NCBI GenBank assembly: GCA_036873135.1
Contig: JAPTYO010000010.1
Span: 7,416,634 to 7,480,633, forward strand
DNA length: 64,000 nucleotides
Source: Clarkia xantiana subsp. parviflora
Lineage: Eukaryota; Streptophyta; Magnoliopsida; Myrtales; Onagraceae
Reading direction: 5' to 3'
Shown here: positions 4,271 through 64,000 of the stretch, in pieces
Position numbering within the stretch: position 1 is the stretch's first letter
Layout: the number at the start of each line of letters is the position of its first letter
Translations under genes and position numbers: made by a program
Notes under the pieces: model-generated
Told to the model about the DNA's origin: nothing
Seen by the model: only the letters and a program-made list of their open reading frames with translations
Database searches by the model: none

Positions 4271-5890
4271 TTAATTCTCAACTTCTTGTTTGTAAATCAT
4301 GAATTTCTGAATAGCTTCATCTTTTCCTTTCATCAAGTATACATAGCAATACTTCGTACTGTCATCTACGAAAGTAATGAAGTATTTATTTCCACCTCGT
4401 GTTTGGACATATTTCAAGTCACAAACGTCGCTATGTATTAGATCAAGAGGTTCGGAAAATCTTTCAACTGGGTGAAACGAAGTCCGAGTAAGTTTCGCTT
4501 CAACGCAAACTTCACATTTTTGTTCTTGATCTATTTTGAATTTAGGAAGGAGCTCCATGTTAATTAACTTTCGTAAAGAATCAAAATTAACATGTCCTAA
4601 TCTACCGTGCCATAAATTAGGAAACTCAAGCAAGTAAGCAGAAGAGGAAGCATTCTTATTCATGTTATTTTTAGGCACAACGGCCATTACAGACATCTTG
4701 AACATCCCTCCATTCTCGTACCCCTTACCCACGTACATACCATTCTTAGTAAGCACAAATTTGTCAGACTCAAATACAAGGCGGAAACCATGTTTGTTCA
4801 ACAAGGCCCCTGACACTAAATTCTTCCGGATGTCCGGAACATACAGCACTTTGGTCAGGGTGAGTTCCTTGCCAGAGGTCATCTTCAGCACGACCGTTCC
4901 TCTGCCTTTGACCGCTGACGAGGCAGAGTTTCCCATGTACAGGGATTCTCCGGTGTCAACCTCCTCCAGGCTTGAAAACAGTGCCTTGTTTGAGCAGACA
5001 TGCTTGGTGGCGCCAGTGTCAACCCACCAGTCCCTGAGGTTGGAGTCAGCCATGTTGATTTCCGACACCATTGCGATCAAGTTAAGGTCTTCCAAATCCT
5101 CAGTGACCGCTGCCACGTGGGCTTCATTTTTCCTAGGGTGCCTGCATTCAACTGATTTGTGGCCTACCTTGCCACAGTTAAAGCAGCTCCCCTGGAAACG
5201 TTGTGGTGCTTGAGAGTCTTGACCTCCTCGGGGTCCCTTGCCTCCCTTGGAAGATTGTCCGCCTTTGGACTTCTTAGAAATACCGCCTTTCGGACCTAGG
5301 TGGACACCCTTGTCCTGTGGCTTCTTCCCCTTCCCACGAGAGCCCTGCCTACTCGGACCCTGGTTATGCTCCACCACATTCGCCTTGGCCGAGTTGGTCG
5401 TCCTCATAGGACCGGCCGGATTTCCGTGGGCCGGATTCGCCTTCTCCAGATTCTCCTGGGTAGCTATCTTGCTGACCACCTTAGACACCGACATATCCTT
5501 CGTTTTATGCTTCATGTAACCCTTGAAGTCAACCCAGCTCGGGGGAAGTTTCTCCATGATCACCGCCGCCTTGAACGTCTCGGTTAACGCCATTTGCGCA
5601 TCATGGAGCTCCTGGAACAAATTTAGGAGCGCATTCACCTGCGGCACCACAGGCTTGTTATCAGCCATTTTAAAAGAAAATAACCGACTAACCAGGAATT
5701 TCTTTCGTCCGGCATCTTCCGTCTCATATTTTTGGTTGAGAGACGTCCACAACTCCTTTGAAGACATCATCTTGCTGTACACTTGATACAGTTGGTCGGT
5801 CAGACAGCTCATGATGGCGTGCCTGCATATGAAGTCCGAGTGCTTCCAAGCCTCTAAGGCCAAGAGGGATGTGGCATCATCTGGAACAAT
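4271..5890 (-). pseudogene. copia gag-protease-integrase, 5'-truncated and interrupted
   Basis: Open on the minus strand from about 5905 to the stop at 4271-4273. Domains in order: C-terminal part of the copia gag (UBN2/Retrotran_gag type, from DDATSLLALEAWKHSD), basic Gly/Lys-rich linker, CCHC zinc knuckle CFNCGKVGHKSVEC, aspartic protease with WVDTGATKHVC, GAG-pre-integrase (LWHGRLGHVN) and the start of the integrase core (HSDVC, FVDDSTKY). An upstream TAA at 5906-5908 lies where about 60-70 further gag residues are normally present, so there is no proper start codon. The frame stops within integrase; the next piece, with the last catalytic acidic residue, is in another frame. Confidence 0.93.
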
Positions 5891-5951
5891 CGCCGGAGTA
5901 AATGGTTATAAAAATATACTCAAACATTTGGAGTAAATGGATTTTTTAATA

Positions 5952-6433
5952 CTAGAATGCCGACGTGTGCGTTGCACACGTGGGGCGTGACTAATTAATG
6001 CTGATGGTGAGCCGGTGGTTTAAAGCATAGTATATTAAGGCGCTTATAATGTCAATATGATAGTTTATGGGAACACGAAACAGAAAATTAGTGATTTATA
6101 ATTAGTAAAACTATATTATTATATCTAAATGTGTTGGTTTTAAAGTAAAAGAATTTTATAACCTTGTTTATCATGCCTCCCATATCAATATGGTGTTTGG
6201 TGTAGTGTGATTTACTACATCACTCATTAATTAAGATGTTCGGAGAATAAATAAATATTCATATTCAACACTTTAACTTTTACGGGCTGACCCAGTGTGA
6301 ATGATGATTAATTTGGATTTAGATCAAATATGTTACAAGTTCTTTCCGCCTTCCGATATGATCCCCTAGTACCACCCCGCGAAAAAGAATAAAGACAATG
6401 AATCATCAAGTGCCAATAAACTGCTATCGTTGA
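5952..6433 (-). mobile_element. Helitron-like 3' terminus inside the copia leader (far end unresolved)
   Basis: Read on the minus strand: a perfect 8-bp hairpin (ACGTGTGC at 5963-5970, loop GTT, GCACACGT at 5974-5981), then seven bases, then CTAG (5952-5955) followed by T. This is the plant Helitron 3' end at an A/T target. The 5' end (TC) must lie to the right, but several GA|T candidates exist before the LTR at 6434 and none is convincing. The insertion sits where the N-terminal gag codons should be. An 11-base direct repeat GGAGTAAATGG (about 5895 and 5931) lies just downstream. Confidence 0.6.
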
Positions 6434-8006
6434 TGTTGGAGGCATTACCCTTGTAGGTAAGAACCCAGATACCAATATTTGGTAAATATAAATTATAATA
6501 TGAGAATTTTTGCTAAACCAAATATTATATGTCGGTATGTACTAAAAGAACGAAAATTTACATGCTGCAACAAACACTTTGCGACGACGCCTTAACATTT
6601 TCGAGAATCATTGACTACAACATTTTGTTTCATTAGGACCACACCCTCCATTTATTTACTAATGTAAATTAATCCAACATAAAAAATTACAAAATCATTA
6701 AACTACAGTTTTATTTGCCCAAATAAGGGACTTACATGAACAATTATATCCCACATAACTTTTTTGGTGTTGTATTGCTTCATCAATACATCAATCCAAA
6801 AATAAAAGAAAGACCCATTATATTTACACCGTGAGAACCCTAAATAATCATGCTGCAGATAGTTAAAATATGATTGATATTAAAGAAAACTAAACCAAAA
6901 ACTGAACTGAACGAAGCAAATGTTAGCAAAATATCAGGGTCAAACTGCAAAACACAAAAGTTGAGGGATTATTTTGCAATTTCTGAAACTTCAGTGACTA
7001 AAACGTAAATAGTCAAATTTCGAGTTCTTACATATAATGATGCCGAATTATCATGCAAGGTATGAACAACTTCGAAATTACACGTAAAATCGACAACGAC
7101 GAAAAACGTGATTTTGTAATACTGAAGCCCGTGCTAATCACAGTCTCCTTAAGGCAATTTCGCCCCACTCCACCCTCGGGTTATGCAAAGGAGTTTAAAT
7201 CACGGGGCGATCACCTCCCAGGATTCAACAGTGTCGTCAGTACGTGTTATGCAACGAACACGTCTGACCGAACCGAACAATACCCGAACACAACAGATTT
7301 TATACTATGCCGAAGACGACGGCGAATCAGTTTATAAATTCGTAATGAACACAGATATAAACAGACAAAAGGATAAAAGCAGCAACTACAGCAGTATGAA
7401 AAATTCGAACTGGAGCAGTAAAAGAAAATATTACTTCGACAGTAGCTGACCGAAGGTAATCAACAAAAGGAGAGGAACACGACAGGAATATCGCAGTAGG
7501 AGGAAGGAGAGGTGGATTGGTGATCAAAATGTGAAGGATTATGGCCCTTTATATAGTGCAATATGGCACAGCATAATAAATTCGAATTTAATTCTGTCAA
7601 TGATTAAATTAAATTCAGAATTTAATTCTGTCTATAAATGACACAGTTAAGTGCACTTAAAGCATCTGTTACCAAGTTCAAAAAAATAAATTTCGAGGCT
7701 AGATTTTCGGACCGACATTCGTGTACGCACGTCGCGGGCGCGCACACAAGCTAAGCCAACCGGGGTGTGCTTCGGATCCAAGGATTTGCACCCCCCCCCC
7801 CCCCCCTTGCGCGCGTGGAGAGAGCCTTTCATCTAGTAAGTTGTTACATATTAAAGCAACAAACACATAATATATACTAGGATAAAAGTCTCACTTTGGC
7901 CGGTGTGGTACTTTGAGTAACACAAAGGCAATACAATTGCCATTCACTTCCCTTACATGGGCTCAAATACAAAGCCCATAAGGCCAAATGCCTCATATGG
8001 CCAACA
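6434..8006 (-). repeat. 5' LTR of the copia element
   Basis: The repeat with 1-1398 is certain from 6655 to 8006. The inner boundary is inferred: TGTTGG at 6434 pairs with CCAACA at 8001-8006 as the short terminal inverted repeat. An alternative boundary is 6480, next to GATACCA at 6468-6474, which resembles a tRNA-Met primer site (minus strand TGGTATC). No clean primer site lies beside 6434, so the boundary stays uncertain by about 50 bases. Confidence 0.8.
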
Positions 8007-8021
8007 GCAAAAACATCGGTT

Positions 8022-9423
8022 CTAGTGATCGGCGCGTCACGCGCATCGGTCATATATGTATTTTCATACTTAGCTTAAAAAAATTCAATTTGGCAAAAAA
8101 TAAGAAAATATTAAAATGTTATAATGAATGTTAAGTAAAGGTAAATAGAAGTTGGAATACACTCTATTTAGATGAATGAAATGGTACTATAGATGTATGA
8201 AAAGTTTAACATGACAATGTTCTAGCATCTTAACATATACCTAAAAGACTATTCCAAGTTTAAAGGGATTTAGTTTAATTTTCACAAAAAATTAGGAAAA
8301 GATTGCATGAACATAGATGAAAGGTTCACGTACGTACCCTCTGTTTTTCTTTTGTGCTCTTACTAACTGAGGTTGCATGAATCTTCTTATTTTATTCCCT
8401 AAAAGAGACTGAATATCACTTCCCTAACATGATAATTGACAAGTTGTAGAAGTCCTTCACAAATGAATGACTTCTACAACTGTGAGTTATGAGTTTGCTA
8501 CTAAGAACACAATAGGGGTCTGAATGTTTGCCCATGTTGCCAAAAGGGGTCTGAATTGAAAAAACGTATTATTAAGGGCCTGAATTTTGAGTTTTGTGTT
8601 TTTTCAAGTCTCCGTCCAAATTTTCTGTTAAATCTAACAGAACCACGTGAAAAGACAAAAATACCATTTTGTAATTATTATACAATTTATCAATTTAATT
8701 AATAAAATATAAAATGTCTAAAATACCCCTACACACTAATTATGCCCTTAAGGCCACCGCCCGGCGACCACCACCCGGCTCCGGCGACCACCACCGGCCT
8801 CCGATCAGAGCCAAAAAAGCTCCGATTGGAGCTCCGAAGCTCCGATCGGAGCCAAAAAAGCTCCAATTGGAGCCAAAGAAGCTCCGATCGGAGCTTTTCG
8901 GTCGTCGCCGGAGGTCGGTGGTGGTCGCTGGAGGTCGGTGGTGGTCGCCGGAGGCCGGTGGTGGTCGCCGGTGGTGGTCGCCGGAGTCGGGTGGTGGTGG
9001 TCGCCGGAGCTGTGGTGGCTTAAAGGTATTTTCGTCATTTTAGGTCAAATATATGAGAGACACACTTTGGTCAAATGGCATTTTCGGGTTTTCAAATTAT
9101 TTTTGGTCACATGTCAAGCATGTGACCACTTTCCGTCACTTTTAACAGGAAAAAATAGACGGAGACCTCACTTATACACAAAACTCAAAATTCAGGCCCT
9201 AAATAATACGTTTTTTCAATTCAGACCCCTTTTGACAATATGAGCAAACATTCAGGCCCCTATTGTGTTCTTAACCCTTAATTATTACCCTAACCTAAGC
9301 GGTGTTAATTTGTCTACTATTGGCCGAACCGATGCCTACATACGTTTTGGTGAAGGTGGTTATTTGTTTATGTTGCCACCTTTTCGTGGTGAGGCCACAG
9401 CTTACCTTTATAATAGTTATAGA
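8022..9423 (-). mobile_element. Non-autonomous Helitron (about 1.4 kb)
   Basis: Minus strand 5' end at 9423: TCTATAACTATTATAAAGG, close to common plant Helitron starts and preceded by A. The 3' end at 8022-8025 is CTAG, six bases beyond a GC hairpin GCGCGT-C-ACGCGC (8032-8044). The base after CTAG is A rather than the expected T, which lowers confidence. No Rep/helicase coding is seen. An inverted-repeat element (8501-9278) lies inside. The copia LTR ends only 15 bases away. Confidence 0.5.
8501..9278. mobile_element. Long-TIR, MULE-like MITE with GC-rich palindromic core
   Basis: Ends are long inverted repeats of about 150 bp (TAAGAACACAATAGGGG at 8502; its complement at about 9257-9274). 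The core 8750-9030 is very GC-rich: CCGGCGACCACC units on the left, their complement on the right, and self-complementary GCTCCGATCGGAGC motifs between. Open frames across the core are repeat artefacts. Related to 34590-35547 and 43121-43531. No clear target duplication. Confidence 0.7.
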
Positions 9424-9429
9424 TAGATT

Positions 9430-11665
9430 ATAATAGATAGATAGATATTTTATTATATACTTAATAAATATATTTTTCTAAATTAAAAATATCCATATTC
9501 TGATAAAAAAAAACATTTATCTATATTATTAGTTTTAATTTAGTTAAAAATTATGAAAAACTATTTTATTTAATTTAATTATCTCACTCGAGCACGGAAC
9601 ATTTAGTTTAAGGACTTTGTGTGGGATTCAAATCATCTGTCTCACTTTTTTTTTCACTTTTTCTACCCTAAACCCTAATAAAATATTCTATTATCCGATT
9701 TTTTTTTTATTTTTTTTCTGGTCAGAATTATCCAAATTTTATAAAACGTGTTGCACCCATATTTAAGCTAAGTAAAGACGATATATCTTGGGAAAAAAAG
9801 AAAGACGATATACAGACTATAATAAATAGAAAGAAACGAAATGTCTTTCTAAATTTACAAATGGAGATTTGGCTGTAAGGAAAGTCAAGAGTGCAATAAA
9901 GGAGACCACATTAATTAATTTCCTAGAAATGCATGCATTTTTAGGATTAACACAAAACACCCATAAACTTATCTTCCCTGTTAAAAAAAAAAAAAAAACT
10001 ATTTTTGGTCTTATCCTAACTTAAAAGTTAGCGCTAATATATCGTTAGAGCATCCACAATGGTATTACGTAAAGATTACGTAAACGTGGGTCCTACATGT
10101 TTATTTAAATAAAGCAATAAAAACTATCTACATTGGTTTTACATAGCATTCATTAAAGATGTGACTCACACGTAAATTTATATTTTACATAAAGTATTCC
10201 TTAAATTTAAGTAATACACTATGTATTACGTAACCAATTTTTTATTATAAATTAATTCATTTTATAATTAATGCTAATATCTTATTGGTGGTTGTTGGAA
10301 AATTTAATAATAAAATATATTTAAGGAATATGTTTAAGTAATACGATTGCAGAAAAAATATTTTTTACGTGTGTCTTAAATTTACGTATTACTTAAAATG
10401 TACATAAATGTCTACGTGGCAACTTTAAAGAATACAATTTATGTAAAACCATTGTAGATGCTCTTAGAAAATAGGAGCATTAACTTGGCAATAATAATTG
10501 TTGGCCAAATTTTTTTTTTATGTTGACAAAAAAAAAACTTGGCAATAATATATAATCCAATATTTTGGTTTTCATCCAAATTATTACCATACATGAATAT
10601 AAAAAATTAAATAGAACGTTATTACTTATATTATGATTTTTTTAGACGCACTAAAAAATTTCACGTTATTAATTAATATTATTATACGATTTTAATGTCT
10701 ATAAATATTTTTCTTTTACTTTTATCTATGACATATAGTATACATTATATAATTTAAATATCATAATTAAAAAGGTAACTTTTTTAATGTTATACACTTA
10801 TTTTTATATAAATATATATATATATGATTTTTTTTTTAAATATATGATACCACATATTATAAAACATTTATGTTATGTAGTTTATATTATTATGTTTAAT
10901 AATAAATAAGCGCATAAGTAAATTAATAAATATTTGGGTTTGGCTAAAATAAATTCGAGTTTATTTAAATTCGATTTCTCAGCCATTAGATTATATATGT
11001 CTAAGAAACATTTTTTATCTCTCATTAATTATGATTGATTCTCTCTCATGATCTAACGGCTGAGAAATCAAGTTTAAATAAACTCGACTGCATTTTAGCC
11101 ATCCCCTATTTTTTAACATATGTTCTCTTTCTTATTTACGTTAAAATGTATACTGACGAAGCTAGGAATTTACTTTAGGGAGGCAATAAATGAATTTTCC
11201 ATGGGAATGTAAGACTTTGCAAACCTAACTTAGAGAATAATTACACTTATATATATATATAGACAATAGACAAAAGTACAAAAGTTGAGTGACAACACTG
11301 AATCCTTTGTCCAAGTAACATATATATATATAATTAAAAATATATATTACCAAAAAATAAATAGATAGTTATCAAATTGTTAGTTTCTAATTAAGTTTCT
11401 TTTTGGACAAATTATTAACTTAGGTTTCGCTCGTAGATAAATCGTTAATAAAAGAAATTATACAGTTTTACTTTTCGGACAATTTTTCTAGCTCGTGTTT
11501 AACTTATGAACATATTGTTAGTTAGTAAATTATCCACGGACTAAATGAGTTAGAAAATTGTCTAAAACAAAAGTCTAATTAATAATTGTCTGAGCGTCTC
11601 AAACTTGAGCTAACAATTTGTCCAAGTATTCTTAAAAAAATTATCCAGCTAACAATTTGTCCAAG
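9430..11665. repeat. Copy A of a tandem duplication (sucrose transporter upstream region)
   Basis: Blocks match copy B (15030-19960) in the same order: 9460-9650 with 15110-15280; 9690-9980 with 16365-16630; 9995-10045 plus 10467-10600 with 16795-16985; 10650-10760 with 18950-19050; 10900-10960 with 19270-19350; 11200-11330 with 19460-19575; 11360-11660 with 19620-19960. Apart from the MITE at 10048-10463 it holds no gene. AT-rich. Confidence 0.8.
10048..10463. mobile_element. PIF/Harbinger-type (Tourist-like) MITE, copy 1
   Basis: Terminal inverted repeat GAGCATCCACAATGG / CCATTGTAGATGCTC with 3-bp target duplication TTA (10045-10047 and 10464-10466). 416 bp, AT-rich, no coding. About 95% like 49409-49825 and 49829-50245 by eye. 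The matching position in copy B (about 16832) is empty. Confidence 0.9.
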
Positions 11666-17318: not shown

Positions 17319-18471
17319 TATAGAAGAATGAGAATTGTATTATTGATCTTATTTAGAGTTGAGTACATGTACTTATATATATAGATACAAGACTATATCT
17401 ATAGCAATATAATAAGAAACATAATCTGATAATATACTAAGAATATATCTATTCCTAATCTAGATATATTTATCTAAATATAATAAGATATATTTATCTA
17501 TAATATATCTTATTCCCTTATACGCCCCCGCAAAACGGACGTTCTGACAAGAATGCTGATCTTGATATGAAGAATATTAATGAATGCCCCAATAGTCCAG
17601 TCTTCATCGGAGGATGCCCGAAGAGGTTCAATCGGCAACGGCGGAAGCCCGGAGATGTCCAGTCGGCACGGCGGTAGCCCGGAAATATCCATCCAGTCGG
17701 CACGGCGGTAGCCCGGAGGTCCAGTCGGCAATGGCGGAGACCCGGAGAAGTCCAGTCGGTCAGGATGCTGCTGGTCACGATGTTCACGTTGGTGAACGAT
17801 AAGCAAACGACGGAGGTGAATTTGCTTGTTGGAGCAAACCTCTTAATTCCAACAAAAAGGCAGCAAAAAGGCAGCAAGTCTCAATCAGAAAGCTTGAAGC
17901 TAGTCACGGAGCCACGGAAGAGTCCTCAGGTGTAGCGATCAGATACTTTCGCTCGTTGGAGCTAGTAGGATCGAGGATGCTGGTAGATAGAAATACCGCC
18001 ATGAGCACGGGCCGATAAAAAAAAAAAATACGCTAGCTGGAGCGGGTACCAAAAGATCGGTGCAGAAATCGTCGATACGGAAGCAGGGATTTATTGTCTT
18101 ATTAGAAAAGAAAGAAAAAAAAAAAAAACTAAAATTAGAATTGGCCAGGGGGCGGGCGGCATGACATCTTCATAGTTGACGGCGGTGCCGACCGCCCCTG
18201 GACAGCGGCAATGGTGGGCGACGGCTTGTAAGTTGTACTCGTTGGAGTTAGAAAGGCTCCGATACCATATAGAAGAATGATAATTGTATTATTGATCTTA
18301 TTTAGGGTTGAGTACATGTACCTATATATATAGATACAAGACTATATCTATAGCAATATAATAAGAAACATAATCTGATAATATACTAAGAATATATCTA
18401 TTCCTAATCTAGATATATTTATCTAAATATAATAAGATATATTTATCTATAATATATCTTATTCCCTTATA
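17319..18471 (-). mobile_element. TRIM-like short LTR retroelement (1153 bp)
   Basis: Two 204-bp LTRs (17319-17522 and 18268-18471) differ at about three positions. Target duplication ATTTC on both sides (17314-17318, 18472-18476). The primer site GGCTCCGATACCA (18255-18267) abuts the right LTR; on the minus strand it reads TGGTATCGGAGCC, a tRNA-Met match. A purine tract (minus strand GCGGGGGCG, 17523-17531) abuts the left LTR. The internal 745 bp has no gag or pol but holds GC-rich tandem units (CAGTCGGCACGGCGGTAGCC, 17630-17760). LTR ends are TATA rather than TG/CA, consistent with G-to-A change at both ends. Confidence 0.88.
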
Positions 18472-23262: not shown

Positions 23263-24534
23263 GAGTTAATATGTCTTTTGTTCTATGATGTTTGACTAGG
23301 CCTGTTAATTTTACCCGTGACCCGCAAACGACCCGCAAATGACCCGTTCACGGGTCGGGTAAGGGTGACCCTAATCACACTAACGGGTCATTTACCGGGT
23401 GACCCGTAAATGACCCGTTGAGTGCGGGCCGGGTACGGGTTTGTAGTTATGACCCGTACTCGGCCCGTGACTCGTTTAGATCAGTTTTTTTTTCTTCTTT
23501 TTTTTTTTTTTTTTAATAAATTTTATACCTAAATTCTAATTCCTAAATCCTAAGTTAATTCTAAATCCTATGTTAGTATTGCATTTTCGTAGATTTTTGT
23601 TATTGGAATATTGGATTTTGGAATTGCACTGTTGTTAAAAATGTTGTTAGTGTTACTTGTATGCCTGGTGTTGCATTGCTTGACTCTGTTTGGAGATTGG
23701 AGATAGTTGAAGTCTTTATTTTGGTTGGTAATGAGAGGGTGGAAGTCCGAACTGCAGACAGTTATTGGAGTACACACTATTTAGTATTTACAGAGAAACA
23801 AACCTCAACTTCTTCTGTACGTATGCTCGTTTCCCTTAATGAAGCACCAAGAAATGAAACTCTGTCTTTTACCTTTAGAATTGATTTAGTTGGTACCTCG
23901 ATTCAGTTTTAGATTTAGGGTGTCAGTTGTTTCTCTTTCTCATTAAACCAAGTGGTCTCAGGTTGTTGGTATCTGCAGCTGCATTGCTTGACCCGGGTTG
24001 CTGGTCAACCCGAGTACGGGTTTACGACCTTGACCCGTGGTGACCCCCGGGTCAATCACGGGTCGGGGTCGTTCGTGACCCGCGGGTCGCGGGTCGCGGG
24101 TCACGGGTTGTGACCCGTTGACAAGCCTATGTTTGACCACTTTTGAGTTTTGATCAATGATGTTTTTTTTACCTAGTTTTGGTACCATATGTTTGCAGAT
24201 TTATTTACTTTTGGTCCGACTGTTACATTCTGTCCATTTTTTCCGTTAAGTGACATGTGCAAGTCACGTGATCCACCCTAAACTTTCAATTTTGTTCAAA
24301 TTTGGGGGAATTGACACCCTAAACCTAGTTCAATGGGTCGATTCCCCCAAAATTGAAAGTTTAGGGTGGATCACTTGCACTTGTCACTGAACGGAAAAAA
24401 TGGACGGAATGTAACGGTCGGACCAAAACTAGAAAAATATGCAAACATATGGTACCAAAACTAGGAAAAAAAAATATCATAGACCAAAACCTCTAAAGTG
24501 GTCAAACATCATGGACCAAAAGACATATTAGCCC
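23263..24534. mobile_element. Mutator-like MITE interrupted by a hAT-like MITE
   Basis: Flanked by the 9-bp duplication TATTTAAAA (23254-23262, 24535-24543). Ends are GAGTTAATATGTCTTTTG and its near-complement CAAAAGACATATTAGCCC. Without the inner insertion (23297-24129 plus one 8-bp duplication) it is about 430 bp of near-complete inverted repeat, with a small loop near 24320. No coding. Confidence 0.88.
23297..24129. mobile_element. hAT-like MITE with GACCCG-rich ends
   Basis: Starts TAGGCCTGT, ends ACAAGCCTA, with the 8-bp duplication TGTTTGAC on both sides (23289-23296, 24130-24137), the size typical of hAT elements. Subterminal regions carry dense GACCCG/CGGGTC motifs in both orientations (23315-23475, 23990-24120), a plausible array of transposase-binding sites. 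833 bp, no transposase. Confidence 0.9.
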
Positions 24535-25365: not shown

Positions 25366-25549
25366 TGTTACGAAAGTATAGAGCTAATGGAAGAGAGAAT
25401 TTAGAGATGATCTTATTATCACACATAGGAGCCCTTATATAGGGATTACATAGACTTGGGGAGGAAGTAAATTTAATACTAGGAAAGTCTAAATAAGGAA
25501 GATGGTATATACACGTAATATTGAACATCCACTAAATATATTCACAACA
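25366..25549 (-). repeat. 3' LTR of the identical-LTR element
   Basis: Starts TGTTACGAAAG and ends TTCACAACA. It has a central CCCTTATATAGGG, likely the TATA region read on the minus strand. Identical to 30140-30323. Confidence 0.93.
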
Positions 25550-30139: not shown

Positions 30140-30323
30140 TGTTACGAAAGTATAGAGCTAATGGAAGAGAGAATTTAGAGATGATCTTATTATCACACAT
30201 AGGAGCCCTTATATAGGGATTACATAGACTTGGGGAGGAAGTAAATTTAATACTAGGAAAGTCTAAATAAGGAAGATGGTATATACACGTAATATTGAAC
30301 ATCCACTAAATATATTCACAACA
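30140..30323 (-). repeat. 5' LTR of the identical-LTR element
   Basis: Base-for-base match to 25366-25549 by direct reading, followed by the second copy of AACAT. Confidence 0.93.
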
Positions 30324-34589: not shown

Positions 34590-35547
34590 GGGTTAAGAAC
34601 CTATGAAAGGTCTGAACTATCACTCATGTTAACGGGAGAGGTCTGAAATTTAAAAATTTAATAACTGAGGTCTGAAATTTAAGTTTTGTTGATAACGGCG
34701 GTCTCCGTTAGTTTTTTCCGTTAAAACTAACGGAAGTTGGTCACATGCTTGGCATGTGACCGAAAATAAAATAAATTTCCAAAAATGCCCTTCTATCAAG
34801 TGTGCCCCTCACATGCTTGAAGTGAAAAGACCAAAATGCCCTTGATGCCACCACAGCTCCACCAACCCAGCTCCGGCGACCACCAACCGTACTCCGGCGA
34901 CCACCAACCGTACTCCGGCGACCACCAACCGTACTCCGGCGACCACCAACCGTACTCCGGCGACCACCACCGTACTCCGGCGACAACCACTGTACTCCGG
35001 CGACCACTACCAAGGCTCCGATTGGGCCCAAATCGGAGCCACCGGCCCCGATTGGGCTCCGATCGGAGCCAAAAAGCTTCGATCGGAGCTTTGTGGCCCC
35101 GACCATAGCCACAGAGCTCCAGATCGGAGCTCTGTGGCTCCGACGAGAGCTTTTTTAGCTCCGATCGGAGTTTTTTCTGAGGTGGTAGCTGGAGTCGGGT
35201 CGCCGGAGCCGAGGTGGTGGTCGTCGGAGTCGAGGTGGTGGTGGCCGGAGTCGGGTGGTGGTGGCCGGAGTCGGGTGGCGGTGGACGGAGTTGGGTGGTT
35301 TTAATTTGACTTTAGGGGTAAAATTGTCATTTCACATTTCCTTAAATAAGATATTAAATAAAACAAAATAATAAAATGGGTAAAAAATGTCATTTCACAC
35401 AATTCTTTTAAATTTAACCCTTAAAATGGACGGAAAACCTCAAATCAACAAAATTGAAATTTCAGACATCCGTTATTAACTTTTTAAATTTCAGACCTCT
35501 CCCGTTAACATGGGTAATAGTTCAGACCTTTCATAGGTTCTTAACCC
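34590..35547. mobile_element. MULE-like long-TIR element with palindromic GC core
   Basis: Inverted ends over 100 bp, starting GGGTTAAGAACCTATGAAAG (complement ends at 35547). Flanks TTATTTATA (34581-34589) and CTATTTATA (35548-35556) are a 9-bp duplication with one mismatch. The core holds a 21-bp minisatellite and GCTCCGATCGGAGC palindromes. No transposase. Confidence 0.82.
34868..35000. repeat. 21-bp minisatellite (CTCCGGCGACCACCAACCGTA)
   Basis: About six nearly perfect copies of a 21-bp unit based on CCGGCGACCACCAACCGTA. The long open frames here on both strands come only from the repeat length being a multiple of three. Confidence 0.9.
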
Positions 35548-36742: not shown

Positions 36743-37140
36743 TAAAAGCAGCAATTAAATTGCTTGGCCAACATAAATTAAATTAATTAGAAGTCGAAGC
36801 AGCATTACGATTTCATATTGGAGAAGAAGAGTCTCCGAGCCGATGTTATTAATTACAGAGAGATCATATTTTATTTTTTACATGGATATAAAATTTATTT
36901 TAGAGAGAATTGAAACGGATATTTATTCAATTCTTTCATTGTATGAAGGAATAGTAACCGACTCTTGAAAAACAAAGTGAGAGTGAAAAACTGCCATGTG
37001 ATTATCTTGCTTATGTGGCAGCTTGAGGTTGAGTATCTAAGTAAAGACATTCAGAATTAGAAGATTTAGAAGATAGATTTATAGAGTTGTAACGTATGGA
37101 GCTACACAATAGAAAGAAAGATGGCTCAATTATTTTTTTT
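36743..37140. other. Intergenic DNA
   Basis: AT-rich; nothing recognised. Confidence 0.5.
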
Positions 37141-37378
37141 TCTGGTTTTTTGTCTAATCAAATTGCTGATTGCTGATGTGTCTTGTTCGAATAGGCTAGA
37201 TAAACTGATGTGTCAAGCCCTCATAGCTTGGCAAACAGGATTAGTATATATTTAGATTTTCTGGTTTTTTGTCTAATCAAATTGCTGATTGCTGATGTGT
37301 CTTGTTCGAATAGGCTAGATAAACTGATGTGTCAAGCCCTCATAGCTTGGCAAACAGGATTAGTATATATTTAGATAT
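37141..37378. repeat. Perfect 119-bp tandem duplication
   Basis: Two head-to-tail copies (37141-37259, 37260-37378) starting TCTGGTTTTTTGTCTAATCA, identical by eye. Confidence 0.93.
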
Positions 37379-45247: not shown

Positions 45248-45751
45248 CTAAGCCTCCGATTCGACGGTCGAAGAAGCTTCCTCAGAAGCGGTGTGGACAG
45301 GGCCGGAACCAGCGACGCTATTCTCATCGGCGCCGTCTGTGGAGGCAGCAGCAGGCGCAGGGGACGCTGAACGGGATTTGACGGTCTCTAGCATCCGCTT
45401 GCTGACCTCCTTGGAGTAGATCTGAAGGATCTCGATGCCGTCATCGTCCGCAGCTGCGGATCCACCCGCGGCAGCGAAAGCCTCCTCCTCGATGGTGCGA
45501 GCTGTGGAAGCAGCCTCCTCGGCGGGAATGGTGCCGTAGCGCTTAGACAGGACAGATGGAGTAGAGAGCGTCTCGATTAGGCGCGTGACGACGGCCTCTC
45601 GCGTGCGCTGAGAGGGAGGCCAAATGCTGAATGTTACGTTAGGGTTGAGGGAGGAGTTGTTTTTCAGAGCGGGCTGCTGCTGCTGCTTTTCCTCCATCTC
45701 AGACGGCGGTGGTGGCTTCGAATCGGCCGCAGTGGATTCTGTATCCGACAT
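45248..45751 (-). CDS. WPP-domain protein (MFP1 attachment factor 1-like)
   Basis: 167 residues, single exon; start chosen at the ATG at 45751 (MSDTESTAAD). The frame stays open above it, but that part has no family resemblance. After an acidic and Gln-rich N-terminus comes the WPP domain (about 38-125): NVTFSIWPPSQRTREAVVTR with Trp-Pro-Pro at 44-46, then YGTIPAEEAASTARTIEEEA and ILQIYSKEVSKRMLETVKSR. The tail is Ala/Ser/Glu-rich. WPP proteins of this type (MAF1/WPP1/WPP2) sit at the plant nuclear envelope and Golgi, and the same domain targets RanGAP to the nuclear rim. The short form without coiled coil fits MAF1/WPP1-2 rather than RanGAP or WIT/WIP. It lies 1.1 kb from the cyclin gene on the same strand. 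Confidence 0.92.
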   Translation of the reverse strand: MSDTESTAADSKPPPPSEMEEKQQQQPALKNNSSLNPNVTFSIWPPSQRTREAVVTRLIETLSTPSVLSKRYGTIPAEEAASTARTIEEEAFAAAGGSAAADDDGIEILQIYSKEVSKRMLETVKSRSASPAPAAASTDGADENSVAGSGPVHTASEEASSTVESEA

Positions 45752-46877
45752 TGCTAGGGAGAAGAGGAAGGTAGATTTAATCGGATTGGAATTTTCCAGG
45801 CGTTTTTCGCGGATTAAAATACGAGGGGAGCGTAAATCGGGTGCCGTAGACGCATGATTAGGTGAAATGATTCTGTATTGATCGGACAGTCCACATTTGA
45901 TCGGTTGATCTGATGGTTGGAATTTCACCATTATTTTCAAGACTATTAATATTTTATTCCCAGAATTGGAAGGATTATATTTGGTTATTATTTATTATCT
46001 TCTAAACTGTGAAAAATATGTCTAATTTAGATGAATTTAGACGGAATTGGTACAAGTAACTAAAAAATATACGCAAAATGAAATGATTATTTTTACAAGA
46101 AAAAAAACAATTCTTAAAATGTCTCTCATGTTAAAATGAAACTTTATAATTTTAGTTATATTAATGCTTACAGATGGCAATGTATTATAAATGCTTTCAA
46201 TTTTGTATCTTTAAATTGGTTTTTCATATATTATGTGTCTTCTTTAAATCGTGTGTAACCTAAGTGATCTATTCTATTCAAATTTAAAGAAATAATTAAC
46301 AAAACCAATTTATTCAAAAGAAAAACTTGAATTATCAAAATGTCTAGAAAAAAAATTAGCAATTTTTTTGAATGTGGAAATTTCATAATCAACCATAATA
46401 ATACTAATGCAAATATTATACAATAAAAAAATTCTCCTTATGAGTAATAAATGGGACAGGTATAACGTCTAACTCCCCACCCATGTGTCCTTGATTTGAA
46501 GGCACTCAACTCAAGACAATTAATTCTTGAGGTTGCCTTAGCTCGTAAGTTCTAACTTCTAACCTCAGAAACTTATCACCGACTCCCAACAGTAAAAATG
46601 AAAAAATGTTGCTGAAAATTTACTTTAATTTACCTGTCAAGATAAAGATAGAGACATTTTCAAAATGCTAAAGCAAAACCACTTGCTTGGATTATTTACA
46701 TTCTTGAATGTCATGAAGGTAAATACCAACAAAAAGCCCAAAATGTACCTAAGAAGCTAAGAATTCCATCTACCAGAAAGAACACTACATCTATCCATTT
46801 CTGCAGCAATTTTCCCACAAGATGAAGGAAATCAATAAAATGTTTTATCTAGAAGACTAACTTGAGCTTCAAGCTTC
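45752..46877. other. Intergenic DNA between the WPP and cyclin genes
   Basis: 5' flank of the WPP gene and 3' flank of the cyclin gene. AT-rich, no repeat recognised. Confidence 0.5.
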
Positions 46878-48903: not shown

Positions 48904-49405
48904 TGGTATGCTTGTCTAAGTCTCCCACTCAACTCTGTGAGAAATGGAGGCTGAGTGGAAGAGAGGTGGGATCCGTGGTGGTGGATTGAGGAGCGGAGAT
49001 TTGTAGGAGGGAAGGTGGAGAGAGGGAAGTACGAGCGCCATTGTTTGAAATAATATTGAAGGAAATATTTTGCCGCTTCTGCGGTTCTCCTTTTGTGTTT
49101 CGATCTGACGAAAAAATGGAGGGCTTTTTTTTGGTATTCAAATCGATCGAAATCCAATATTTGAGATTTCAATTATTTTTTGTTTAATATAATTTTGTTT
49201 TCCCTCTAAAGATTTGATTAGGGGCCTTGTGTGAGTTTCGGTATTTGTATTGGGCGGGTTCTTTCCCCCTTCAAATTAAATTTTAGTTGAAGCTCAATTT
49301 TACACTTAAATACTAAAATAAATAATTAGTTAATTAGTGGCCAACAAAAATTTAGGTAATTAATTGATTTTTATAAACAGAGTGGTGGGTGGTGCAACAA
49401 ACATC
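48904..49405. other. 5' flank of the cyclin gene
   Basis: 5' UTR and promoter region of the minus-strand cyclin gene. No distinct promoter motif could be assigned. Confidence 0.45.
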
Positions 49406-49408
49406 TTA

Positions 49409-49825
49409 GAGCATCCACAATGGTATTACGTAAAGATTACGTAAACGTGGGTCCTACATGTTTATTTAAGTAAAGCAACAAAAATTATCTACAGTGGTTT
49501 TACATAGCATTCCTTAAAGATGGGACCCACACGTAAATTTATGTTTTTACATAAAGCATTCCTTAAATTTAAGTAATGCACTATGTATTACGTAACCAAT
49601 TTTTTATTATAAATTAATTCATTTTATAATTAATGCTAATATCTTATTGGTGGTTGTTGGAAAATTTAATAATAAAATATATTTAAGGAATATGTTTAAG
49701 TAATACGATTGTAGAGAAAATATTTTTTACGTGTGTCTTAAATTTACGTATTACTTAAAGTGTACATAAATGTCTACGTGGCAATTTTAAACAATACAAT
49801 TTATGTAAAACCATTGTGGATGCTC
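49409..49825. mobile_element. PIF/Harbinger-type MITE, copy 2
   Basis: GAGCATCCACAATGG / CCATTGTGGATGCTC ends, flanked by TTA at 49406-49408 and 49826-49828. 417 bp, highly similar to copies 1 and 3. Confidence 0.92.
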
Positions 49826-49828
49826 TTA

Positions 49829-50245
49829 GAGTATTTTCATTGGTATTACGTAAAGAATACGTAAACGTGGGTCCTACATATTTATTTAAGTAAAGCAACA
49901 AAAACTATCTACAGTGGTTTTACATAACATTCCTTAAAGATGGGACCCACACGTAAATTTATGTTTTTACATAAAGCATTCCTTAAATTTAAGTAATGCA
50001 TTATGTATTACGTAACCAATTTTTTATTATAAATTAATTCATTTTATAATTAATGCTAATATCTTATTGGTGGTTGTTGGAAAATTTAATAATAAAATAT
50101 ATTTAAGGAATATGTTTAAGTAATACGATTGCAGAGAAAATATTTTTTACGTGTGTCTTAAATTTACGTATTACTTAAAGTATACATAAATGTCTACGTG
50201 GCAACTTTAAAGAATACAATTTAGGTAAAACCATTGTGGATGCTC
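49829..50245. mobile_element. PIF/Harbinger-type MITE, copy 3
   Basis: Starts right after the TTA that ends copy 2 and is followed by TTA (50246-50248). The left end is diverged (GAGTATTTTCATTGG); the right end is intact (CCATTGTGGATGCTC). 417 bp, same interior and orientation as copy 2. Confidence 0.9.
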
Positions 50246-50248
50246 TTA

Positions 50249-50786
50249 GGGCATGTTTGATTGCATGTATTAGCTAAATATCGACTAATATATTCTAATA
50301 CATAATTAGCTAATGCAATGTTTGGTTAAATCATGTATTAGGATATCCTAATACATTTACTAAAAGACTTAAATGCCCTAAATAGATATATACATTTTTT
50401 AATTATTATTATAATTGAAGTCCAGTCGGGGTTGCCGGAGTCCGGCCGGGGGTCGCCGGAGTCCGGCAGGGGGTCGCCAGAGTTCGGCCGGAGGTCGCCG
50501 TAGTCCGGCCGGAGGTTGCCGGAGACCGGCCGCGGGTCTCCGGATTCCGACCGGAGTTGGTGTAGTTGTTATATATTAAATAATGTTATGAGTATTTTGG
50601 TCATTATGTACTATGTATTAGCTAATACATGATTTTTTTAGTGTCTTAACTAATACATGATTTACTATAGAAATGAGTATTAGCTAATACTCATGTATTA
50701 GCTAATACCAACACCAAAGCAAAACAAACAAAGTATTATCTAAGACATATATTAGTATATCCTAATACATACAATCAAACATGTCA
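50249..50786. mobile_element. Second MITE family sharing the TTA boundary
   Basis: GGGCATGTTTGATTG at the left and CAATCAAACATGTCA at the right, flanked by TTA (50246-50248, 50787-50789). Subterminal TATTAGCTAATAC motifs recur in both orientations. The core carries a GC-rich minisatellite. 538 bp. Confidence 0.87.
50421..50545. repeat. GC-rich minisatellite (GTCGCCGGAGTCCGGCCGGGG)
   Basis: About six imperfect 21-bp copies inside the MITE. Like the other GC cores in this window, it is an island in AT-rich DNA. Confidence 0.8.
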
Positions 50787-54797: not shown

Positions 54798-54920
54798 ACA
54801 TTCTCTTAAAAAATGTTATCCATCATCCAATTTCTGAATCTACCATTGTACACAATAATATATTATATATTATCTTTATAATTGATAGTTAATATGAATA
54901 TGCAAATAATAATATTATAT

Positions 54921-55472
54921 AGGGTTAAATGGTTTTTTGTACTATATATTTGACCGATTTTGGTTTTTGGTACAATATGTATCTTTTTGTATACTCTTGG
55001 TGCCATATGTTTGCACTTTGTAGACTTTTGGTCTATCTGTTAGCTGATCATTAATTTTTGCCGTTAAGTGGAACGTGTAAGACACGTGACTTGTCATATA
55101 CTTTTGATTTGTTCCATTTAGTCCCTCTAATACATCCTTAACTTTTTTATTTATCAATATATTCTCATAGAACCCAAATCGAACCACTAGGCTCGATGGA
55201 ACTAGCCATGGGACGATCGAGTCTAGTCGTTCCGATTTTAGTTCTGTGGGACTAAATTGAACAAAAAAAAGTTAGAGAAGTATTAAAGGGACTAAATTGA
55301 ACAAAATCAAAAGTATAAGATAAGTCACGTGCACATGCCACTTAACGGTAAAAACTAACAGACAAATCAAAATTCTATAAAGTGTAAACGTATTGTACAA
55401 AAAAAATATAAAAAAGAAACATCTTATACAAAAATTCAAAATCGATCAAATATATAGTATCAAACAGACCCT
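54921..55472. mobile_element. MULE-like MITE
   Basis: Arms (ACTATATATTTGACCGATTT left; near-complement right) flanked by ATATTATAT (54912-54920) and ATATCATAT (55473-55481), a 9-bp duplication with one mismatch. 552 bp. Arm motifs resemble those at 23263-24534 and 13885-14065. Confidence 0.8.
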
Positions 55473-55657
55473 ATATCATATAATAAATTAGCTATTAGTT
55501 AGAAACTAATCAATATATAGTCAATGTCCGATTTCTATTCCAGACTGACTCGCCGAATTGTTTGTTTTCTCTTTAAGTGGAGGTTCCAAAGGGTGAAGAA
55601 ATTTAGAAAAGTTGTTGTCGGATCATGTCCATTTGATTTATTGTACACTATATATGA

Positions 55658-58149: not shown

Positions 58150-58926
58150 ATCCATCAATTTTGTATGAAAAGAGGTCGGGTGCTAGCACGTGATTACTAA
58201 TGACACTTGAATAAACAAAAATATAATTATCTTTTTTCTTACTTGAGGTAATTTATGTGACTTTAAGATACCTCTGAAAGAGGCTCTTGAAACTTAATGA
58301 AATTAGTATGTATACAACTTATGCATGAACGAGACTAGATTTTCCTTCAAAGCAAAAATAGAACAAAAGGAAATTCAAAATAAAAAAAATATCTGGGTCA
58401 AATATTAAACTTCAAAAGAATAAATTGAAAACAATTATACTTTTTGGGTTAAATTGCATAATAACAAAAGTTTAGGGGTTTATTAACCATTTGTGACATC
58501 GTGCATGTATGTCCGTAATATATCGTGACGTGGTTATGTTGGGGTTGCATGCATAAAACACAACAAATAAGAAAAATGAGAAAGTACATTAGCGTGTCGA
58601 TCTTGATTATAAAATATATAGACGAACTCTACGTGCTAAGGAATATATATCAATTTGGATTGTTAAATTATATTTATGCCGCTATATAAATAATTTATGT
58701 ATGCTTTATGCGAAAATGAAACATTTTCCGTGAGTACATAAAAAACTCTTTAATGAATAACTTATTTACCAATACAGATGGAAGAGCCCATACAAGATAG
58801 TGATCACATTTACGCTTCTATCTATTCTTTATTCTATCTATTCTCTATATAAAAGGCAAAGTACCCTTGAGCTGGTTCCAACAAAGTCTAATAGTAGTTA
58901 GAATAAAAAAAAAAAGTACGCTGAAG
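58150..58926. other. Left flank of the satellite-bearing element
   Basis: AT-rich, no gene recognised. Confidence 0.5.
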
Positions 58927-59126
58927 ACATCTTTTGGACTAAACTATGGAACGGCCGCTGTTTCATGCGGCCTATTAATAATATATTTTATTCTTAATAT
59001 CTGGTTTAATGATTTTCGGCCTGGTCTGGTTCGACTAATTCCGGTTTAACAGCGTTAGAATCTCCCGTTAAATTTGTTTGGATGTACTGTGACCCAACAG
59101 CATAGTAGTGGCTGCACCTGACAACC

Positions 59127-62100
59127 TTTAATATTTAATTCTATTATGTTTGTTCCAATTGATATATGAAATCAGTAGCAACTAAAATTATTTTATGTGC
59201 ATGAATTATATTCCATAATATTAATTAATTATTTAAATGTCAATTTTTTTATTTACTCTGGTGGTGGTTTTCATTTAGGGTATGGATAAGGTTTATAGTA
59301 AACTTGACTAGGGGTTTAGTATTTTCACTATGCCTTAGTGGTTGTATTTTTTTAAAATTTAATATTTAATTCTATTATATTTGTTCCAATTGATATATGA
59401 AATCAGTAGCAACTAAAATTATTTTATGTGCATGAATTATATTCCATAATATTAATTAATTATTTAAATGTCCATTTTTTTTTATTTACTCTAGTGGTGG
59501 TTTTCATTTAGGCCTTAGGGTATGGATAAGGTTTACGGTAAACTTGACTAGGGGTTTAGTATTTCCACTATACCTTAGTAGTTGAATTTTTTTAAAATTT
59601 AATATTTAATTCTATTATATTTGTTCCAATTGATATATGAAATCAGTAGCAACTAAAATTATTTTATGTGCATGAATTATATTCCATAATATTAATTAAT
59701 TATTTAAATGTCATTTTTTTTATTTACTCTGGTGGTGGTTTTCATTTAGGGTATGGATAAGGTTTACAGTAAACTTGACTAGGGGTTTAGTATTTCCACT
59801 ATGCCTTAGTGGTTGAATATTTTTAATATTTAATATTTAATTCTATTATATTTGTTCCAATTGATATATGAAATCAGTAGCAACTAAAATTATTTTATGT
59901 GCATGAATTATATTCCATAATATTAATTAATTATTTAAATGTCCATTTTTTTATTTACTCTGGTGGTGGTTTTCATTTAGGGTATGGATAAGGTTTACAG
60001 TAAACTTGACTAGGGGTTTAGTATTTCCACTATGCCTTAGTGGTTGAATTTTTTTAAAATTTAATATTTAATTCTATTATATTTGTTCCAATTGATATAT
60101 GAAATCAGTAGCAACTAAAATTATTTTATGTGCATGAATTATATTCCATAATATTAATTAATTATTTAAATGTCATTTTTTTTATTTACTCTGGTGGTGG
60201 TTTTCATTTAGGGTATGGATAAGGTTTACAGTAAACTTGACTAGGGGTTTAGTATTTCCACTATGCCTTAGTGGTTGAATTTTTTTAAAATTTAAAATTT
60301 AATTCTATTATATTTGTTCCAATTGATATATGAAATCAGTAGCAACTAAAATTATTTTATGTGCATGAATTATATTCCATAATATTAATTAATTATTTAA
60401 ATGTCCATTTTTTTATTTACTCTGGTGGTGGTTTTCATTTAGGGTATGGATAAGGTTTACAGTAAACTTGACTAGGGGTTTAGTATTTCCACTATGCCTT
60501 AGTGGTTGAATTTTTTTAAAATTTAAAATTTAATTCTATTATATTTGTTCCAATTGATATATGAAATCAGTAGCAACTAAAATTATTTTATGTGCATGAA
60601 TTATATTCCATAATATTAATTAATTATTTAAATGTCATTTTTTATTTACTCTGGTGGTGGTTTTCATTTAGGGTATGGATAAGGTTTACAGTAAACTTGA
60701 CTAGGGGTTTAGTATTTCCACTATGCCTTAGTGATTGAATTTTTTTAAAATTTAAAATTTAATTCTATTATATTTGTTCCAATTGATATATGAAATCAGT
60801 AGCAACTAAAATTATTTTATGTGCATGAATTATATTCCATAATATTAATTAATTATTTAAATGTCATTTTTTTTATTTACTCTGGTGGTGGTTTTCATTT
60901 AGGGTATGGATAAGGTTTACAGTAAACTTGACTAGGGGTTTAGTATTTCCACTATGCCTTAGCGGTTGAATTTTTTTAAAATTTAATTCTATTATATTTG
61001 TTCCAATTGATATATGAAATCAGTAGTAACTAAAATTATTTTATGTGCATGAATTATATTCCATAATATTAATTAATTATTTAAATGTCCATTTTTTTAT
61101 TTACTCTGGTGGTGGTTTTCATTTAGGGTATGGATAAGGTTTACAGTAAACTTGACTAGGGGTTTAGTATTTCCACTATGCCTTAGTGGTTGAATTTTTT
61201 TAAAATTTAATTCTATTATATTTGTTCCAATTGATATATGAAATCAGTAGCAACTAAAATTATTTTATGTGCATGAATTATATTCCATAATATTAATTAA
61301 TTATTTAAATGTCATTTTTTTTATTTACTCTGGTGGTGGTTTTCATTTAAGGTATGGATAAGGTTTACAGTAAACTTGACTAGGGGTTTAGTATTTCCAC
61401 TATGCCTTAGTGGTTGAATTTTTTTAAAATTTAAAATTTAATTCTATTATATTTGTTCCAATTGATATATGAAATCAGTAGCAACTAAAATTATTTTATG
61501 TGCATGAATTATATTCCATAATATTAATTAATTATTTAAATGTCCATTTTTTTATTTACTCTGGTGGTGGTTTTCATTTAGGGTATGGATAAGGTTTACA
61601 GTAAACTTGACTAGGGGTTTAGTATTTCCACTATGCCTTAGTGGTTGAATTTTTTTAAAATTTAAAATTTAATTCTATTATATTTGTTCCAATTGATATA
61701 TGAAATCAGTAGCAACTAAAATTATTTTATGTGCATGAATTATATTCCATAATATTAATTAATTATTTAAATGTCATTTTTTTATTTACTCTGGTGGTGG
61801 TTTTCATTTAGGGTATGGATAAGGTTTACAGTAAACTTGACTAGGGGTTTAGTATTTCCACTATGCCTTAGTGGTTGAATTTTTTTAAAATTTAATTCTA
61901 TTATATTTGTTCCAATTGATATATGAAATCAGTAGCAACTAAAATTATTTTATGTGCATGAATTATATTCCATAATATTAATTAATTATTTAAATGTCAT
62001 TTTTTTTATTTACTCTGGTGGTGGTTTTCATTTAGGGTATGGATAAGGTTTACAGTAAACTTGACTAGGGGTTTAGTATTTCCACTATGCCTTAGTGGTT

Positions 62101-62573
62101 GAATTTTTTTAAAATTTAAAATTTAATTCTATTATATTTGCTTAAATTGATATATGAAATCAGTAGCAACTAAAATTATTTTATGTGCATGAATTATATT
62201 CCATAATATTAATTATTTAAATGTCCATTTTTTTATTTACTCTGGTGGTGGTTTTCATTTAGGGTATGGATAAGGTTTACAGTAAACTTGACTAGGGGTT
62301 TAGTATTTCCACTATGCCTTAGTGGTTGAATTTTTTTAAAATTTAATATTTAATTCTATTATATTTGTTCCAATTGATATATGAAATCAGTAGCAACTAA
62401 TATTATTTTATGTGCATGAATTATATTCCATAATATTAATTAATTATTTAAATGTCTATTTTTTATTTACTCTGGTGGTGATTTTCATTTAGGGTATGGA
62501 TAAGGTTTACAGTAAACTTGACTAGGGGTTTAGTATTTCCACTATGCCTTAGTGGTTGAATTTTTTTAATATT
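59127..62573. repeat. Tandem satellite array, 15 copies of a ~231-bp monomer
   Basis: The marker GATATATGAAATCAGTAG recurs at 59161, 59392, 59632, 59863, 60094, 60325, 60556, 60785, 61009, 61233, 61464, 61695, 61918, 62149 and 62376. Spacings are 231, 240, 231, 231, 231, 231, 231, 229, 224, 224, 231, 231, 223, 231 and 227. Monomers are very similar; length changes fall in the T-run before TTTACTCTGG and in an AATTTAAAATTTAA stretch. The first unit differs most, and the last one or two carry extra changes, as expected at array edges. Confidence 0.97.
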
Positions 62574-63459
62574 ATATTCCTTATCATTACTATTATAATA
62601 TATAATATAATCATATAAATTGATACCCTAAAATAATTGGGAAAAAATAACTTGATATTATTAATATATATTTATCCAAATAATGCCTAAGGTATACATC
62701 AATATAAGTGAATAGAAAAAAATTATTGGCTAGAATCGGTGATTTAAAAGAGAATTTAGTAAATTTGAACATAATTATACTAGAATAGAACTACGTATGC
62801 AGTTAATAAATAGTAAGATAACTTTTGCACACTCATGAAAATATAAATATATATATATATTAAATAAATGGGTAAAGAAGAGTCTTTATCTCTCTTACTT
62901 TTTGGTACGGTTATTGAAAAATAATCTTAAGAAAAGGGAAAAGAAGATTTTGTCCCTCTCTCCTGCTTATCTTCTTCATCTTCCTCATCAACCACGAGAA
63001 GAACATTAATGGCGAAGAACAAAAATAACAACATTTTTGTTTTCTTCATTGCAGTTCAAAATCTGACCATAAGGACAAGCAAGTAATCTCTTACATTATC
63101 ACATATTTTCAGAGGGGGCAAACTTAAGCAAGTCAATTTTTATAAAAAACTTATAAGTATCTATTTGAGCATTCATGGAGTTCAGGAGGGGCAATTGCCC
63201 CTTCTGGACCTTATATAGCTCCGTCCCTGTATGAAGCTCCGTCAAACTGGACTGACTACAGACTCAAAACGGAACGTATAGTAAACGGCAAGTTCAAACG
63301 TCACTTAAAACTTCACATCCGGTCTGGATAAATCTTCGAACCGTGGTCTAATTCACTTAAGTGATGTGATATGATGTGACAAGAACCACTAAACCGCATT
63401 TTTTCACTTTTTTAGTTATTTACAAGTTTGCCATTAAATACAGGCCTCTAATTGGTGGA
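62574..63459. other. Right interior of the satellite-bearing element
   Basis: AT-rich, no gene. 63173-63229 (GGGGCAATTGCCCCTTCTGG to AGCTCCGTCCCTG) looks like one end of an older hAT element, whose usual terminus is CAGGGRCGGAGC. Confidence 0.5.
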
Positions 63460-63510
63460 AATTAGGCCGCTTGAAACAGCGGCCGTTCCATAGTTTAGTC
63501 CACATCTTTT

Positions 63511-64000
63511 CGGCCGGTCAAGACATCTTTTTGGCAAAATTACACACACCTTTTCACATTACCCCACCAAAAAATTCACCTTTGCCCCTCCAAAGTCCAA
63601 ACACCACACTCCCTTCCACCCAGTACCACCGTCATCCACGACCAATTCTCCGATTAAGTTCACTCCCCGATTCCATCCCCGCCCACTACTTCGGCATTCC
63701 ATCAATTGTACCACTCAGTCTTTCTCAATGCCGACGGAACGGGTTCATTACGAAACTGGCACTGCCCATGCCGATCCCGTTCATCGCCAGTGCTCAGGCT
63801 TATTCAATCCACCTGCTTACTCAATTCGCCATTTCCACAACCCTACGATCCTCCAATCGGCCAACCTCTATATTTTACGCGTACTGCTCCAAACGGTTTC
63901 CATGATTCCATCCATCACTTTAAATTTCCAACCGTCTTCTCTAATGTACACATGTGTCCATACATTTGCCCAACCAACCATACTTTCACACCCAACACAA
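63511..64000. other. Right flank, no supported gene
   Basis: C-rich, low-G plus strand with a 144-codon open frame (63471-63905) that overlaps the element end. Composition (Pro/Ser/Thr/Leu) suggests a chance frame; it could be part of a gene continuing past the window. Confidence 0.35.

Follow-up and report, generated by a model that had tools for sequence, protein, structure and literature searches.

The 64-kilobase (kb) window analysed here, a 64,000-nucleotide stretch of contig JAPTYO010000010.1 from Clarkia xantiana subsp. parviflora, holds a transposable element that encloses a tandem array. We propose that this element is a non-autonomous Mutator-like transposon bounded by a 9-base-pair (bp) target duplication, and that its 15-unit array began with a duplication at a short direct repeat and was then enlarged within the element by unequal exchange; on balance, we consider this account probable. 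The observed part of the explanation consists of facing 39-bp inverted ends, a 9-bp duplication that abuts them, the enclosed array and the absence of any ATG-started open reading frame (ORF) of more than 53 amino acids. The element is 4,566 bp long (58936-63501; positions are those of the window, plus strand unless stated) and is composed of a left arm of 191 bp (58936-59126), an array of 3,447 bp (59127-62573) and a right arm of 928 bp (62574-63501), the array accounting for three quarters of the length.

Ends, target duplication and coding content

A scan of the window for the terminal sequence GGACTAAACTATGGAACGGC, with up to three mismatches permitted, gave two matches, both exact, at 58936-58955 (plus strand) and 63482-63501 (minus strand), compared with a mean of 0.00 matches in 100 shuffles. 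The terminal inverted repeats (58936-58974, and 63463-63501 on the minus strand) are each 39 bp long and differ by one mismatch, with 38 of 39 bases identical (97.4%). One scan returned a 40-bp pairing, because the base adjoining each end is complementary to its counterpart as well. The word ACATCTTTT directly adjoins both ends, matching at nine of nine positions (58927-58935 on the left and 63502-63510 on the right). It occurs three times in the window, and at least three occurrences were reached by 18 of 100 shuffles, so the count alone is not unusual; the weight of the duplication comes from the two copies that abut both ends exactly. The third copy (63523-63531) lies 21 bp past the second within the 12-bp word AAGACATCTTTT, which is found at 58924-58935 and again from 63520, so the flanks, when joined, give a site with AAGACATCTTTT twice, 21 bp apart. 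Comparable short-range repeats of 12-mers form 16 clusters in the first 58.9 kb of the window and are therefore not rare. The third ACATCTTTT, with its AAGACATCTTTT, does not weaken the duplication reading, because it is the second copy that adjoins the right end without a gap. If the element was inserted as one unit, the site before insertion would have carried a single ACATCTTTT, reading AAGACATCTTTTCGGCCGGTC... uninterrupted.

The window was also scanned for end pairs of any sequence, using seeds of 10 exactly matching inverted bases at a spacing of 60-15,000 bp and requiring an exact flanking repeat of 8, 9 or 10 bp. Five pairs were found. The pair of the element matches at 20 of 20 terminal bases and the other four at 12, 12, 14 and 17 of 20, while ten dinucleotide shuffles yielded one pair in all, at 13 of 20. 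The pair with 17 matching bases (24188-24449) was rejected as a second element, since it lies within a longer inverted repeat and its flanking 8-mer is palindromic.

Each end can form a G+C-rich hairpin as single-stranded DNA, with a 6-bp stem on the left (GGCCGC...GCGGCC) and a 7-bp stem on the right. The left hairpin is more stable than shuffles with a z value of -3.38 (1 of 200 fold as well) and the right one with a z value of -3.26 (3 of 200). The sole mismatch between the ends falls at the left hairpin, whose stem is the shorter one. The original prediction, made from the letters alone, had described a 15-unit array of ~231-bp units within inverted ends, an intact 9-bp duplication bounding these ends and hairpins within them. 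The end scan, together with tandem-repeat detection, confirms the first of these, the exact abutment of ACATCTTTT on both sides upholds the second, and stems that fold better than nearly all shuffles agree with the third.

The ATG-started ORFs of at least 30 amino acids that overlap the element have 35, 53, 31 and 40 amino acids, and those wholly internal to the right arm (31, 40 and 53) all lie on the minus strand. Comparison with Pfam gave no family for the ORFs of 35, 40 and 53 amino acids. An autonomous Mutator-like element codes for its own transposase, and here the longest ATG-started ORF has 53 amino acids; the element is therefore likely non-autonomous. Counted from stop to stop, the window contains 28 ORFs of at least 110 amino acids, and none of the 12 that were compared with Pfam contains a Mutator transposase domain. 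No match was obtained when the window was scanned with Rfam and for tRNAs.

Two side observations concern the right arm. The ORF of 40 amino acids (62927-63049, minus strand), one of those without a Pfam match, has a hydrophobic start that by eye resembles a signal peptide. A near-palindrome, GGGGCAATTGCCCC (63180-63209), is G+C-rich within the A+T-rich element and may be an acquired piece.

Growth and origin of the array

Tandem-repeat detection gave a period of 231 bp, 15.0 copies and 96% matches for the array, which is 76% A+T. An anchor word marks the start of the 15 units (u01 to u15), whose lengths range from 223 to 240 bp; the pairwise identity with gaps counted has a mean of 0.962 and a minimum of 0.904. 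Substitutions found in one unit only were counted as private, excluding the poly-T columns 108-112, the junction columns from 233 and gap columns. The 18 private substitutions are distributed from u01 to u15 as 4, 4, 1, 0, 0, 0, 1, 1, 1, 1, 0, 0, 0, 3 and 2. The edge units u01, u02, u14 and u15 hold 13 of them, which is unique among 1365 four-unit sets, and the difference per site is marked (13 in 914 sites at the edges versus 5 in 2,541 in the rest; Fisher p 6e-5). Two pairs of units are identical, u05 with u13 (eight units apart) and u06 with u11 (five apart), and the block u05-u06 differs from u10-u11 by one base in total. The interior units are thus younger than the edge units, and the identical units are non-adjacent. 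Unequal exchange between misaligned copies is an established model (Smith 1976, as cited in the accessible part of PMC4079207), and it is favoured here because a young interior and non-adjacent identical units are both expected of it. Satellites are recognized by tandem units that evolve in concert, and the array shows this in its 15 units, its mean identity of 0.962 and its edge effect. A clear higher-order repeat was considered and is unsupported, as identity rises at no unit distance. A dyad inside the monomer folds no better than shuffles (z -0.37). In viral contig collections, an exact 22-base pattern from the ends and an exact 39-base pattern from the monomer had no matches each, a result with little bearing on plants.

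The edges of the array suggest how the first duplication may have occurred. The same word, TTTAATATT, is found at the left edge (59127-59135) and at the right edge (62565-62573), and the match between the edges is lost at once outside it on both sides. Among 200,000 random pairs spaced 215-244 bp and drawn from regions of the window that are just as A+T-rich, 126 share at least 9 bp. Slippage or misaligned repair classically gives rise to a first tandem duplication where a segment is bounded by a short direct repeat, and TTTAATATT is our candidate for this repeat. The ancestral element would have contained a single 231-bp segment with TTTAATATT on both sides, where slippage or misaligned repair could have produced the first tandem duplication. 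Unequal exchange between misaligned units would then have raised the number of interior units and homogenized them, leaving the edge units to age. A transposase made elsewhere would recognize the ends and move everything between them as one piece, and with every further insertion an array with the capacity to expand would be set down at a new site, which is the least supported step. The array may have reached its size before or after insertion, as either order is compatible with the data; with a difference at 1 of 39 bases, the ends offer too little to date growth relative to insertion.

Several observations weigh against this history. First, the TTTAATATT at the unit junctions is altered and mostly enlarged by ~7 bp, as in TTTTTAATATTTAATATTTAATTC at the junction of u03 with u04, and the junctions are ~7 bp longer than a simple duplication model predicts; a shorter form is present in 3 of 15 units (u08, u09 and u12). 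Later small changes must be assumed to account for these altered, lengthened junctions. Second, TTTAATATT at the edges could result from an array that ends by chance 9 bp into a further unit (~4%, taking all phases as equal). Third, the set of edge units was named after the alignment had been seen, though an edge effect is the standard expectation, and identity among interior units is flat over unit distance, at 0.972-0.987 for distances 1-10. The alternation of the C and poly-T variants, with no adjacent C units in u02-u14 (P 0.016), is likewise a post hoc count. Finally, alignment of the monomer with the arms gave no clear similarity on the left, where 171 and 169 of 200 shuffles scored at least as high, and a borderline one on the right, where 6 and 9 of 200 did. 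A derivation of the monomer from the ends or arms accordingly finds no support on the left and borderline support on the right.

These arm comparisons are also what would be seen if the array were a pre-existing satellite, captured by or inserted into the transposon and not born inside it. We regard such a capture as rather unlikely, although it has a precedent: in Chenopodium quinoa, the presence of 32.5 monomers of a 171-bp satellite in a CACTA element was interpreted by the authors as capture (PMC8978399, accessible part). The base composition appeared to point the same way, the array having 2 CpG dinucleotides where 47 are expected, compared with observed/expected ratios of 0.98 in the left arm and 0.77 in the right. 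However, counts over nearly identical units are not independent, and per unit the difference is weak (0 versus ~3.1 expected), so we dropped the lack of CpG as evidence. The junctions argue for birth within the element, since an altered TTTAATATT at most of them is expected of a duplication at that word and not of a target duplication made by an inserted block. Capture is also disfavoured by the absence of any further monomer from the window; apart from its terminal repeat, the left arm is single-copy there, and no other copy of either arm was found.

Superfamily and integrity of the locus

Membership in the Mutator-like superfamily is plausible, as inferred from the 9-bp duplication and the general form of the element. 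Mutator-like elements make target duplications of 8-11 bp, typically 9, and ACATCTTTT agrees at nine of nine positions on both sides. The assignment is weakened by two points. Classical Mutator ends are usually 100 bp or more, and the 39-bp ends are short by comparison; moreover, neither a transposase nor a second copy of the element was found in the window, so the superfamily is read from duplication length and form. Merlin-like and P-like elements also make duplications of about 9 bp, and without a transposase the superfamily is not directly readable. The foldback element Tetris, which makes duplications of 8-10 bp, likewise received no definite class (PMC4079207, accessible part). Nevertheless, we judge an origin from such a superfamily to be unlikely, as 9-bp duplications in plants are taken as typical of Mutator-like elements (PMC4486113, accessible part). 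The same source describes MuTAnT of Medicago, a Mutator-like family with 9-nucleotide duplications and short ends of 47 bp on average; since MuTAnT shows them, plant Mutator-like elements with ~47-bp ends and 9-nucleotide duplications do exist. The Mutator-like label of the original prediction therefore stands in part: the 9-bp duplication and the form fit it, and no Mutator transposase was present among the ORFs compared with Pfam.

Foldback elements have long inverted repeats, usually internally repeated, that make up much of their length, whereas the inverted similarity here ends after 39 bp, and the element does not fit this type. Past the ends, the resemblance between the two arms does not exceed that of shuffled sequence, 166 and 63 of 200 shuffles scoring at least as high.

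The copy number and evenness of the array could in part be an assembly product, with reads collapsed or duplicated in an array that is 96% identical. The two pairs of identical units could not be placed by short reads and leave room for this, but private changes in 9 of 15 units, with a bias to the edges, are hard to obtain by mis-assembly, and we give this explanation little credence. Separate insertions of the two ends, the case named in the original prediction as refuting it, would have to face each other by chance across an unrelated array and are highly improbable: the third ACATCTTTT nearby shows that the word recurs locally, but the ends face each other with 38 of 39 bp identical and share the 9-bp word exactly at both outer edges.

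Other features of the window

The window also contains genes and other repeats. A gene for a WPP-domain protein (MFP1 attachment factor 1-like; 45248-45991, minus strand) has its best match in Punica granatum, with 71% identity over the full query, followed by Trapa and Myrtaceae; the named organisms among the best 120 of 361 matches are plants. Part of a sugar transporter gene and a cyclin exon are present as well. A Copia-type retrotransposon occupies 1-8006 on the minus strand, with 1.4-kb repeats at 1-1398 and 6655-8006 that are 95% identical, the first of which begins at the window edge.

Among the shorter repeats, a 420-bp repeat with inverted ends (GAGCATCCACAATGG ... next to TTA), which we take to be Tourist-like, is present in two head-to-tail copies at 49404-50278 that are 94-97% alike, and in a single copy at 10045-10468. 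The paired copies seem to be a further DNA element observed while still a dimer. A perfect tandem duplication of 119 bp lies at 37138-37376 (100% matches, 2.0 copies), and a 184-bp direct repeat with 100% identity is found at 25366-25549 and 30140-30323, 4.8 kb apart. Two foldback-like inverted repeats, at 54909-55485 and 24129-24509, have arms that are 74% and 82% alike, respectively; neither has an exact flanking duplication of at least 7 bp with matching ends within 15 bp of the arm ends. G+C-rich short-period repeats with units of 20-41 bp are located at 8761-8998, 34859-35299, 17595-17759 and 50428-50554, and the repeats at 8.8, 34.9-35.3 and 50.4 kb are mutually related.

Comparison with known elements and significance

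We compared the element with known transposons that contain tandem repeats, using the accessible parts of the papers cited for each. The original prediction stated that satellites derived from transposon-internal repeats come mostly from long terminal repeat elements and Helitrons. This proved too narrow: such repeats are also described for CACTA, En/Spm and foldback elements, for miniature inverted-repeat transposable elements (MITEs) and for Arabidopsis Tnat1 and Tnat2. Internal tandem arrays are already known from DNA transposons (Tnat1/2, CACTA, Tetris, miDNA4), and the present element is a well-preserved further case that could serve for testing.

Among plant elements, Tnat1 and Tnat2 of Arabidopsis thaliana (Noma and Ohtsubo 2000) share with it central tandem repeats, of 60 or 240 bp, a comparison drawn from the description in a review alone (PMC10794571). 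The CACTA-like Jozin of Chenopodium is likewise a plant DNA transposon with its ends in place and a satellite array inside (PMC8978399, PMC7320549), in this case of 32.5 monomers of 171 bp (PMC8978399). Unlike the present element, Jozin is 16.5 kb long, has a transposase and is of the CACTA type, and its array is also found in other elements and loci of Chenopodium (PMC8978399, PMC7320549). MuTAnT resembles our element in its Mutator type, 9-bp duplications and short ends (mean 47 bp), but it is mostly 200-300 bp long, has no array and targets TA repeats (PMC4486113).

Animal elements provide the other parallels. Tetris of Drosophila virilis is similarly non-autonomous, with 8-10-bp duplications and A+T-rich internal tandem repeats of ~220 bp; their copy number is variable, with long arrays of up to 66 copies elsewhere (PMC4079207). 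The repeats of Tetris lie on both sides within long inverted repeats of up to 1.7 kb, whereas the present element has one central array and 39-bp ends. The MITE miDNA4 of Xenopus (Scalvenzi and Pollet 2014, via PMC12628747) also has an internal satellite and short A+T-rich flanking direct repeats. It carries one or many monomers, and the direct repeats were proposed as the cause of copy-number change, so the first-duplication model for our array has a precedent in the same model proposed for miDNA4 (PMC12628747). It differs in being of the Tc1/mariner type and from a frog, and its authors start from a captured repeat (PMC12628747). Tm1 of Meloidogyne is of the Mutator type, with 9-bp duplications and tandem repeats, but these repeats are of 13-15 bp and lie within the terminal repeats (PMC3169594).

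Our search of the open-access literature, which left most subscription papers outside its scope, revealed no case of a central satellite in a Mutator-like element. Further cases of transposon-internal arrays are listed in a review (PMC9659126), in which the term MULE (Mutator-like element) is absent. The accessible part of PMC6947457 gives general models only, and those of PMC12941216, PMC12694884, PMC6297998, PMC3113786 and PMC4413256 contain nothing on Mutator-like satellite carriers.

The origin and dispersal of satellites is a long-standing question. Here, a single locus retains the ends of the carrier, the target duplication and a record of growth, in the form of aged edges, a young interior and a direct repeat at the array edges. 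A broader proposal is that a Mutator-like transposon was both birthplace and carrier of a new satellite family, which was doubled at TTTAATATT, planted as an array with each jump and enlarged by unequal exchange; we put this forward tentatively, as possible but doubtful. If it is true, the Mutator-like carrier would have a role without an example in the open-access literature searched. In the absence of any other copy, the element would add to the list of transposons that contain internal repeats. Should the genome contain further copies, with one to many units, the order of doubling, growth and dispersal would be directly readable from them.

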